In this document: positions 2,667 to 5,345 of the stretch, in pieces | Numbering within the stretch: position 1 is the stretch's first letter | Layout of the letters: the number at the start of each line of letters is the position of its first letter | NCBI RefSeq assembly: GCF_003985155.1 | Contig: NZ_ML133697.1 | Coordinates: 124,001-188,000 of the forward strand | Origin: Rhizobium vallis | Lineage (GTDB): Bacteria; Pseudomonadota; Alphaproteobacteria; Rhizobiales; Rhizobiaceae | DNA length: 64,000 nt | Direction: 5' to 3' | The notes under the pieces: generated by a model | The model's database searches: none | The model's input: the letters and a program-made list of their open reading frames with translations, nothing else | Told to the model about the DNA's origin: nothing | Position numbers and translations under genes: made by a program

Positions 2667-3038
2667 ATGCCCAAACAGGTGATGATTGTAGAAGATAACG
2701 AGCTCAACATGAAGCTCTTTCGCGACCTCATCGAGGCGTCAGGCTATACCACGATCCAGACGAGAAACGGCATGGAGGCGCTCGATCTGGCGCGCAAACA
2801 TCGCCCCGATCTCATCCTCATGGATATTCAGCTTCCCGAGGTCTCCGGTCTCGAAGTCACAAAATGGCTGAAGGAAGACGACGAGCTGCATGTGATTCCG
2901 GTCATCGCCGTCACCGCCTTCGCGATGAAGGGCGACGAGGAGCGCATTCGTCAGGGCGGCTGCGAAGCCTATGTTTCCAAGCCGATTTCGGTTCCGAAAT
3001 TCATCGAGACGATCAAAACCTATCTGGGCGATGCCTGA
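2667..3038 (+). CDS. divK: Single-domain response regulator DivK
   Basis: A 123-residue stand-alone receiver domain with no output domain. The phosphoacceptor is Asp53 ([11 protein letters not shown]). The acidic pocket is at Glu9-Asp10, and the conserved Lys is in SKPIS near residue 105. In Caulobacter, DivK links the PleC/DivJ kinases to the CtrA pathway and so controls cell division and polarity; the same role is expected in rhizobia. It lies 18 bases upstream of pleD, the classical divK-pleD pair. The ATG at 2667 is preceded by only a weak ribosome-binding sequence. Confidence 0.95.
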
Positions 3039-3056: not shown

Positions 3057-4430
3057 ATGACTGCGCGAATACTGGTGGTTGACGATATCCCGGCCAACGT
3101 GAAGCTGCTCGAGGCGCGGCTGCTTGCGGAATATTTCGACGTGATGACCGCAGCCGACGGCTACGAGGCGCTGGCAATCTGTGAGCGGAACCAGGTCGAT
3201 CTGGTCCTGCTCGACATCATGATGCCCGGCATAGACGGTTTCGAGGTCTGCGAGCGGTTGAAGGCCAGCCAGAAGACCGCCCATATTCCCGTCGTCATGG
3301 TCACCGCGCTCGACCAGCCGGCCGATCGCGTGCGCGGCCTGAAGGCCGGCGCCGACGACTTCCTGACCAAGCCCGTCAATGATCTGCAGCTGATTTCGCG
3401 GGTGAAGAGCCTGCTGCGGCTGAAGACGTTGAGCGACGAGCTGCGCATCCGCGCCGACACCGCCCATACGATGGGCATGGACCACCTCACGCGGGCAGGC
3501 GAGGGCCGCGCCGACGAGACCGGCCAGGTCCTGCTCGTCGATGGCCGCGCCAATTCGCAGGAGCGCATTATCAGGGCGCTGAAGCCGGTCGCCGACGTGC
3601 TTGGCCTTTCCGATCCGCAGGCCGCTCTCTTCGAGGCCGCCGAGAGCGCATTCGACCTCGTCATCGTCAACGCCAACTTCGACGATTACGATCCGCTTCG
3701 CCTGTGCTCGCAACTGCGCTCGCTCGAGCGCACGCGTTTCCTGCCAATCCTGATCATCACCGAGCAAGGTGCCGACGAGATGGTCGTCCGCGCGCTCGAC
3801 CTCGGTGTCAACGACTACATCGTCCGTCCGGTCGATCCCAACGAGCTGGTTGCCCGCAGCCTGACGCAGATCCGCCGCAAGCGCTACAACGACCGCCTGC
3901 GCAACAGCGTCAAGCAGACGATCGAGCTTGCGGTGACCGATCCGCTCACCGGTCTCTACAACAGGCGCTATCTCGACAATCACCTGAACGTGCTCTTCAA
4001 CCGCTCGATGGCCCGCGGCCGGCCGCTTTCGGTGCTGATCACCGATATCGACCGCTTCAAGCAGGTGAACGACACTTACGGCCATGACGGCGGCGACGAG
4101 GTGCTGCGGGAATTCGCAAACCGAGTCCGTTCGACCATCCGCGGTGCCGATCTCGCTTGCCGTTATGGCGGAGAGGAATTCGTCGTCGTGATGCCCGACA
4201 CGTCGCCGGAGGTTGCCGCCGCAGTTGCCGAACGCCTGCGCACGGCGGTCGAAAGCACTTCTTTCGCGTTGAAGCATTCCGGTCAGGCACTGAGCGTCAC
4301 CGCTTCCTTCGGCATCGCCTCGCGTATTACCTCGGTCCTGACCCCCGACCAGTTGATGAAGCAGGCGGATCTGGCTCTCTACGAAGCCAAAAATACGGGC
4401 CGCAACCGTGTGGTCGCCGCGGCGGCCTGA
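3057..4430 (+). CDS. pleD: Diguanylate cyclase response regulator PleD
   Basis: 457 residues: receiver domain 1 (about 1-122, phospho-Asp53 in LLDIMMPGIDG), receiver-like domain 2 (about 157-275), and a GGDEF domain (about 290-455). Domain 2 has Asn where a phosphorylatable Asp is expected (VIVNANF near residue 205), so it is probably an adaptor for dimerisation. The active site is GGEEF at 371-375. The product-inhibition site RxxD is intact at Arg362-Asp365, exactly five residues before it. It makes cyclic di-GMP at cell poles in relatives and is probably co-transcribed with divK. The stop is followed by a weak terminator at 4475. Confidence 0.95.
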   Translation: MTARILVVDDIPANVKLLEARLLAEYFDVMTAADGYEALAICERNQVDLVLLDIMMPGIDGFEVCERLKASQKTAHIPVVMVTALDQPADRVRGLKAGADDFLTKPVNDLQLISRVKSLLRLKTLSDELRIRADTAHTMGMDHLTRAGEGRADETGQVLLVDGRANSQERIIRALKPVADVLGLSDPQAALFEAAESAFDLVIVNANFDDYDPLRLCSQLRSLERTRFLPILIITEQGADEMVVRALDLGVNDYIVRPVDPNELVARSLTQIRRKRYNDRLRNSVKQTIELAVTDPLTGLYNRRYLDNHLNVLFNRSMARGRPLSVLITDIDRFKQVNDTYGHDGGDEVLREFANRVRSTIRGADLACRYGGEEFVVVMPDTSPEVAAAVAERLRTAVESTSFALKHSGQALSVTASFGIASRITSVLTPDQLMKQADLALYEAKNTGRNRVVAAAA

Positions 4431-4500: not shown

Positions 4501-4892
4501 AATGCCCGCTTGCGCTACGCACGGTGAAAATTTCGCAGCTTAATAGCCCAAAAATGGTCTTCCCGCATTGCTGGGAATGTGCCGACATTCGACAGTCTCG
4601 AAGACGTTAGGTCGTCGCCAGGGTCGAAATGGAGACTATAAAAAAGCCTGGCGCCAACAGGGTGCAAATAGAGTGCGCCGTCGTCACCTGACGTAGGGGA
4701 AGGGGAGGCGTAAGTTATTAGGTTATATTGTCGAATTTCTTCAGCGGTTCATGCATTGAGTTTCAAGCCTAAGCAAAGCCGCTAAATCTTTGTATGTCCC
4801 AAAATTGGACTTTTAACCATAGAATCAAGCTCGGAAAAATCACCATTAAGAATTTGTTGATTTTCTTTCATTTTTGCGCAAATTATCGGCTC
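4501..4892. other. Gene-free, AT-richer stretch between pleD and the RNA candidate
   Basis: No convincing reading frame or tRNA is visible. The base composition is clearly more AT-rich than the flanks. It contains TTAA-N7-TTGA at 4846-4860, one mismatch from the CtrA consensus TTAA-N7-TTAA. It also holds an inverted repeat GCCAGG/CCTGGC around 4618-4655. The only other signal is the promoter-like pair listed separately. Confidence 0.6.
4857..4886 (+). promoter_or_regulatory. Candidate sigma-70 promoter for the small RNA
   Basis: TTGATT (4857-4862) and AATTAT (4881-4886) with an 18-base spacer predict a start near 4893. The -35 hexamer overlaps the second half of a CtrA-like site (TTAA-N7-TTGA). 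Recognised by eye only. Confidence 0.4.
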
Positions 4893-5079
4893 ATAAGAGA
4901 AGCGCTCCCGAGAGGAGTTGTCGATACCCCATGATGCTCAGGTCCGCCGCATCTCCTGGGTCGTGGGGTCGGTCGGCTAGTAGGCAAGCTATAACGGTTC
5001 CTCGTGCCGTTTTGCATGCTGGCCGACCCCCTTTTAAGAAAACGCCGCCACTTCCCGAAGATGGAAGGGCGGCGTTTTT
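4893..5079 (+). ncRNA. Candidate structured small RNA, unidentified family
   Basis: No protein frame explains this block, yet it is rich in nested complementary segments. A small hairpin CTCC/GGAG lies at 4906-4918. A stem ACCCC (4926-4930)/GGGGT (4965-4969) encloses GATGC/GCATC (4933-4937/4949-4953). A long hairpin GGGGTCGG (4965-4972)/CCGACCCC (5023-5030) encloses AACGG/CCGTT and is followed by CTTTT. The GGGGT segment takes part in both larger pairings, so they exclude each other. A second strong terminator follows at 5039-5079. Lengths of about 140 or 187 nt are possible. It lacks the SRP RNA tetraloop region, and I cannot assign it to 6S or any named rhizobial RNA. Confidence 0.5.
5039..5079 (+). 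terminator. Strong intrinsic terminator (works in both directions)
   Basis: AAAACGCCGCC (5039-5049) pairs with GGCGGCG plus T5 (5068-5079), extended by an inner TTCC/GGAA. The A-run on the left makes it usable on the minus strand too. On the plus strand it closes the RNA candidate. Confidence 0.8.
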
Positions 5080-5121
5080 CTGTTTGCGCTATCATCTTCA
5101 ACGACGATCCAATCCGGACAA

Positions 5122-5156
5122 CAAAAAACGCGCAACCCGAGGGCGCGCGCTTTTTC
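5122..5156 (-). terminator. Intrinsic terminator after rpmG
   Basis: Read on the minus strand, a GCGCGC...GCGCG stem with a CCTCGGG-type loop is followed by six Ts, beginning 22 bases after the rpmG stop. Flanking A and T runs make it bidirectional. Confidence 0.75.
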
Positions 5157-5177
5157 GAAATCCCGGAGACCAAGTGA

Positions 5178-5345
5178 TTACTTGATCTTGGTTTCCTTGA
5201 ACTCGACGTGCTTCTTTGCAATCGGGTCGTACTTCGTCTTCGTCATCTTGTCCGTCATCGTACGGCTGTTCTTCGTCGTGACGTAGAAGAAACCGGTGTC
5301 GGCTGTCGACAGCAGCTTGATCTTGATTGTTGTAGCCTTGGCCAT
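5178..5345 (-). CDS. rpmG: 50S ribosomal protein L33
   Basis: A 55-residue protein with the L33 signature ([21 protein letters not shown] at the start, then a TKYDP turn and a basic tail). It lacks the CxxC zinc pairs found in the zinc-binding form of L33, so it is the zinc-independent type usual in proteobacteria. The ATG at 5345 is preceded by AGGCAGGACG, an acceptable ribosome-binding sequence. It has its own promoter inside the end of the MFS gene and a hairpin in its leader, so it is probably expressed separately from the upstream gene. Confidence 0.97.

Follow-up and report, generated by a model that had tools for sequence, protein, structure and literature searches.

The structured RNA block downstream of pleD in Rhizobium vallis is almost certainly a copy of the known small RNA EcpR1

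The structured block that follows pleD in the window, a 64,000-nucleotide stretch of Rhizobium vallis DNA, is almost certainly the Rhizobium copy of EcpR1, an already described sRNA. In a cmscan search against Rfam 15, the family RF02500 (Atu_C6, described as EcpR1) matched positions 4924-5033 of the plus strand with 105 bits (E 3.4e-14), against a gathering score of 60, and the alignment covered model positions 1-113 of 113, the full model length. This was the only RF02500 match when the whole genome was scanned. The initial annotation had described an RNA without a known family and had itself proposed the Rfam search, noting that a hit would make the RNA known, not novel; the full-length match to EcpR1 settles that claim against it. 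Both the sRNA and its family are thus known, and so is its place in the genome. The main value of the result is the correct annotation of a known stress-responsive cell-cycle regulator. The features of the locus, in window coordinates, are as follows.

2667-3038, plus strand: DivK-like response regulator (Response_reg domain match)
3057-4430, plus strand: pleD (Response_reg and GGDEF domain matches)
4846-4865, plus strand: conserved block TTAAGAATTTGTTGATTTTC, overlapping the -35 element; 99 of 124 EcpR1 loci have TTAA-N7-TTGA upstream
4856-4884, plus strand: probable sigma-70-type promoter GTTGAT-N17-CAAATT, proposed from the conserved block and from likeness to an S. meliloti promoter
4924-5033, plus strand: EcpR1 core, from the RF02500 score and alignment
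4926-4969, plus strand: predicted SL1 hairpin, with ACCCC (4926-4930) paired to GGGGT (4965-4969)
4943-4954, plus strand: SL1 loop UCCGCCGCAUCU, placed by coordinates and conservation; the mRNA-pairing (seed) region by its published function in S. meliloti (PMC4414408)
4971-5028, plus strand: predicted SL2 hairpin, then CCCUUUU, from folding and two-sided changes in the stem
4999-5005, plus strand: SL2 loop UCCUCGU, in conserved columns (published motif UCCUCG, PMC3927594)
5038-5079, plus strand: terminator-like hairpin and U-run (-27.6 kcal/mol, z -6.23), the likely end of a longer transcript of the 142-nt type
5178-5345, minus strand: rpmG (Ribosomal_L33 domain match), convergent with the block

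EcpR1, also called SmelC291, Sra33 or SmrC10, has been characterised as a trans-acting sRNA in Sinorhizobium meliloti, where ecpR1 lies between divK-pleD and rpmG behind a sigma-70-type promoter (PMC4414408). There it is induced in stationary phase and under stress, is stimulated by ppGpp, has a predicted fold of two hairpins, SL1 and SL2, and base-pairs through the SL1 loop UCCGCCGCAUCU with the gcrA and dnaA mRNAs (PMC4414408). Compared with the published description of that RNA, the R. vallis block shares the locus, the predicted two-hairpin fold, the SL1 loop and the SL2 loop motif; promoter spacing is similar, a terminator lies downstream, and a gcrA leader site stands at about the same place. 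Relatives of EcpR1 in R. etli and R. leguminosarum have been confirmed by Northern blots (PMC3927594). ReC26 of Rhizobium etli CFN42 is named as the R. etli relative of SmelC291 (PMC3927594), and we liken it to the block by that naming; the nearest matches to the pleD of the window are in Rhizobium species.

The order divK-pleD / ecpR1 / rpmG is present in the window. The block lies on the pleD strand and downstream of pleD, as a leader, an attenuator or the pleD 3' UTR might, but we consider it very unlikely that it is one of these instead of an independent sRNA: rpmG, which follows as the next recognised gene, runs towards it, its promoter block is conserved, and ecpR1 of S. meliloti is published as an independent transcription unit (PMC4414408). 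The next recognised gene past rpmG is on the minus strand too, and five small open frames over or near the block gave no Pfam match at E <= 1. Two statements of the initial annotation, that no plus-strand gene follows and that a trans-acting RNA is likelier than a riboswitch leader, are upheld. On the minus strand at 5125-5158 another hairpin with a U-run, perhaps the rpmG terminator, can be seen by eye; the same stretch gives a sub-threshold match to Atu_C9 (14.5 bits, with 40 required).

Folding confirmed that the block is structured. Both positions 4890-5038 (-63.6 kcal/mol, z -3.94) and positions 4857-5084 (-97.2 kcal/mol, z -5.57) folded below all 200 dinucleotide shuffles. EcpR1 here is predicted to form two stable hairpins, SL1 and SL2. 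The sequence TCCGCCGCATCT stands at 4943, and the SL1 loop is unpaired in the predicted fold; across 70 aligned homologues, UCCGCCGCA within this loop was invariant and UCU was kept at 90% or more. At 4998 stands TTCCTCGT, which carries the SL2 loop motif UCCUCG.

Covariation, which had been suggested as a check on the structure, was examined in 25 family sequences of consistent register that we chose and realigned. Pair counts were left off the first alignment of 70 sequences because MAFFT had misaligned the 5' arms of SL1 in its distant members. Within this selected set of 25, two-sided changes occurred in 13 of the 16 pairs of the SL2 stem, and in 15 pairs of the whole structure, compared with a shuffle mean of 9.4 and with 3-9 when the partner was slid; 38 of 500 shuffles attained the value for further pair types, one of the five measures. 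In the apical helix of SL2, which was less well kept, 67.8% of cells were paired. Fourteen of the 15 SL1 pairs never varied in the same sequences, so that SL1 contributed no covariation signal, and for this reason 14 chosen divergent members were folded separately; an SL1-like hairpin formed in them from quite different arm sequences. The SL2 loop UCCUCGU is kept although the SL2 stem varies. We infer that this loop could act as a second seed by pairing with Shine-Dalgarno sequences; the loop changes reported in the available text of PMC4414408 concern the SL1 loop only.

The initial annotation had also proposed that the RNA may be switchable, its two folds excluding each other: GGGGT at 4965-4969 would toggle between ACCCC at 4926-4930, in SL1, and ACCCC at 5026-5030. 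Such a bistable RNA could alter seed exposure or termination. All three segments are indeed found at these positions, and the letters allow either pairing. Forcing the second fold hides part of the seed inside a small hairpin, both partners are kept in the 25 selected family members, and 96 of 124 loci have [AG]CCCCC where SL2 ends on its 3' side. The two folds are not comparable in stability, however. Forcing GGGGT onto 5026-5030 cost 7.1-7.8 kcal/mol in the four segments tested (for 4924-5036, -47.6 kcal/mol as against -55.4 kcal/mol when folded freely), and the alternative pairs had a probability of 1e-5 to 2e-5, as against 0.80-1.0 for the SL1 pairs. When 114 distinct homologues drawn from the 124 loci were folded as ensembles, using distance from the loop to assign positions, the 3' arm of SL1 formed at most 0.234 expected pairs with the tail, SL1 itself kept at least 12.3, and the mean unpaired fraction of the seed never fell below 93%. 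Thirteen of the 70 aligned members, those at greater distance, have CCAC in the tail, and SL1 would be finished before 5026-5030 is transcribed. No compensatory change was seen in the alternative helix among the 25 selected sequences, where this helix is almost invariant, so its pair count neither supports nor refutes a switch. On constrained folding, ensemble folding and pair counts the switchable RNA was rejected, and we regard a bistable RNA at this locus as highly improbable. The SL2 3' end at 5025-5031 that carries the [AG]CCCCC motif is partly unpaired in the predicted fold.

Upstream of the EcpR1 hairpins, the promoter-like pair of the initial annotation was sustained in part. GTTGAT-N17-CAAATT resembles a tested S. 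meliloti promoter, ATTGAT-N17-CAATGC (PMC4414408), and falls in a conserved block, but a scan for consensus sigma-70 promoters found none. In most family loci examined, TTAAGAATTTGTTGATTTTC is conserved beyond the needs of a -35 element. The motif TTAA-N7-TTGA was found upstream of EcpR1 in 65 of 88 representatives, with 0.4 expected from mononucleotide shuffling, the representatives having been picked by ungapped identity and many of them still being close relatives; it was missing from most order-level loci. The genome contains a single exact copy of the longer form TTAAGAA-N4-TTGATTTTC, and two other sites differ from it by two mismatches. TTAACCA occurs upstream of EcpR1 in 66 of the 124 loci. 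At window positions 4813-4820 stands TTAACCAT, which reads like a CtrA half-site and which is conserved among near relatives within an otherwise variable stretch.

It is conceivable, though doubtful, that the deeply conserved block TTAAGAA-N4-TTGATTTT over the ecpR1 -35 element, together with TTAACCAT 33 bases upstream, forms a cell-cycle regulator site of CtrA-like half-sites, and that this regulator drives or represses ecpR1 while EcpR1 acts as a repressor of gcrA, and gcrA in turn acts on ctrA, in a feedback loop. EcpR1 would then be not just ppGpp-responsive but would close such a loop. The published CtrA consensus of S. meliloti is TAA-N7-TTAAC (PMC3616915); compared by eye, TAA-N7-TTGAT here agrees with it at 6 of the 8 positions, which makes CtrA control a weak lead. 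TTAA-N7-TTAA occurs in 1 of 124 upstream regions, and GANTC sites upstream are at the level of shuffles (37 of 88, with 37.9 expected). Overproduction of PleD or DivK left the S. meliloti ecpR1 promoter unchanged (PMC4414408), and the main text of Pini 2015 contains none of pleD, sRNA and ecpR1. A network of CtrA and EcpR1 has been raised as a possibility for Methylosinus sporium (PMC12403871); the available text of the literature searched held no test of CtrA at the ecpR1 promoter. The conserved block in the ecpR1 promoter, which the published accounts of EcpR1, as far as available, leave unexplained, may be of use to specialists.

We looked for published targets of EcpR1 in the same genome. 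The gcrA leader (L131) carries ATGCGGCGGA at -109 to -100, a perfect 10-nt complement of the SL1 loop, and a run of this length was reached in 0 of 100 shuffles. The site published for S. meliloti lies at -109 to -95 (PMC4414408); the complement here is 10 nt and contiguous, whereas the published region is 13 nt. The search for GcrA succeeded in 60 of 61 family genomes, and its leader was read in 58 of them, with G075 and G103 dropped as no start was recognised. A loop complement of at least 9 nt within -125 to -81 of gcrA was present in 34 of the 50 genomes with EcpR1 and in 0 of the 8 without (Fisher p 3.8e-4, uncorrected for shared ancestry), which leaves 16 EcpR1-bearing genomes whose gcrA leader has no 9-nt run. 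Here EcpR1 was counted as present at E <= 0.001, the weakest case being G073 (9.9e-4), and three of the eight genomes without it are under 3 Mb. EcpR1 and the gcrA target site may have been lost together. The confinement of the site to EcpR1 carriers in this small sample, which may also be of use to specialists, would fit gcrA as an old target. The Pfam model of GcrA also matched the archaeal control Sulfolobus acidocaldarius over the cut-off, which was unexpected.

A clear dnaA site, in contrast to S. meliloti, was not recovered by a crude test for contiguous runs: between -300 and +120 of dnaA, with the start taken at L132:979, the longest contiguous loop complement was 6 nt, the same as in shuffles. 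Because the dnaA sites in the literature are in part interrupted or short, the lack of a run is weak counter-evidence. Under a ranking by duplex energy gcrA did not stand out (-22.0 kcal/mol, the best duplex lying within the coding region), and this ranking was replaced by the longest contiguous complement. In that ranking dnaA came near the top, at -23.8 to -25.1 kcal/mol depending on the start chosen, of 64 putative leaders with a best value of -25.2 and a median of -20.3 kcal/mol; these background leaders belong to long open frames of either strand, and many of those frames are probably not genes. GspR (SmelC775) of S. meliloti, compared by description, is likewise a trans-sRNA acting on a cell-cycle regulator, ctrA, and is identified only in Sinorhizobium according to the available text of PMC5928217.

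The strong second terminator described by the initial annotation was confirmed by folding, which revealed the hairpin at 5038-5079 and its terminal U-run; a mechanical terminator scan had not listed it. Its columns are conserved among near relatives, and the second terminator is less certain outside them. A run of five T after SL2 was present in just 52 of 124 loci. S. meliloti EcpR1 occurs as a dominant 101-nt form and as a 142-nt form that includes the terminator (PMC4414408), and the two terminator-like ends seen here appear to resemble these forms. The Rfam match spans 110 nt, in contrast to the 101 nt of the published dominant transcript.

Family membership, copy number, synteny, the predicted fold, SL2 covariation and the 10-nt complement in the gcrA leader were computed here; the S. 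meliloti experiments cover transcription, induction by stress and ppGpp, and base pairing with gcrA and dnaA (PMC4414408). We infer transcript ends, induction and regulation in R. vallis along the following lines. The sigma-70-type promoter at about 4856-4884 would give a primary transcript starting near 4890, which is probably trimmed to a core beginning near 4920, with a 3' end set by the U-run that follows SL2 (about 5035) or by the 5038-5079 terminator. The RNA would fold into SL1 and SL2 and leave the nearly invariant SL1 loop unpaired; this loop may then pair with complementary GC-rich stretches in mRNA leaders, that of gcrA above all, and in stressed or starved cells the pairing would lower the expression of cell-cycle regulators.

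We surveyed the distribution of EcpR1 in two samples of genomes that share members, counting matches at E <= 0.001 with stricter filters that can miss weak members. Among 61 genomes of relatives, the genome of the window included, 51 carried EcpR1, 48 of them over the cut-off; among 297 family genomes 243 did, 237 of these over the cut-off. RF02500 matched 0 of 14 controls in either survey. With PleD as the query 80 loci were retrieved, and a scan of the first 34 placed RF02500 downstream of pleD, with a score over the cut-off, in 25; the nearest PleD match was that of Rhizobium pisi, at 97% identity. BcKCsr2 (RF02883) overlaps the block weakly at 4931-5080, but with 26.7 bits it falls below its gathering score of 40, its alignment contains broken pairs and EcpR1 outscores it at the same place, so that membership of the block in BcKCsr2 or in some other sRNA family can practically be dismissed. 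One genome, G302, gave two RF02500 matches, the better of them at E 2.1e-5.
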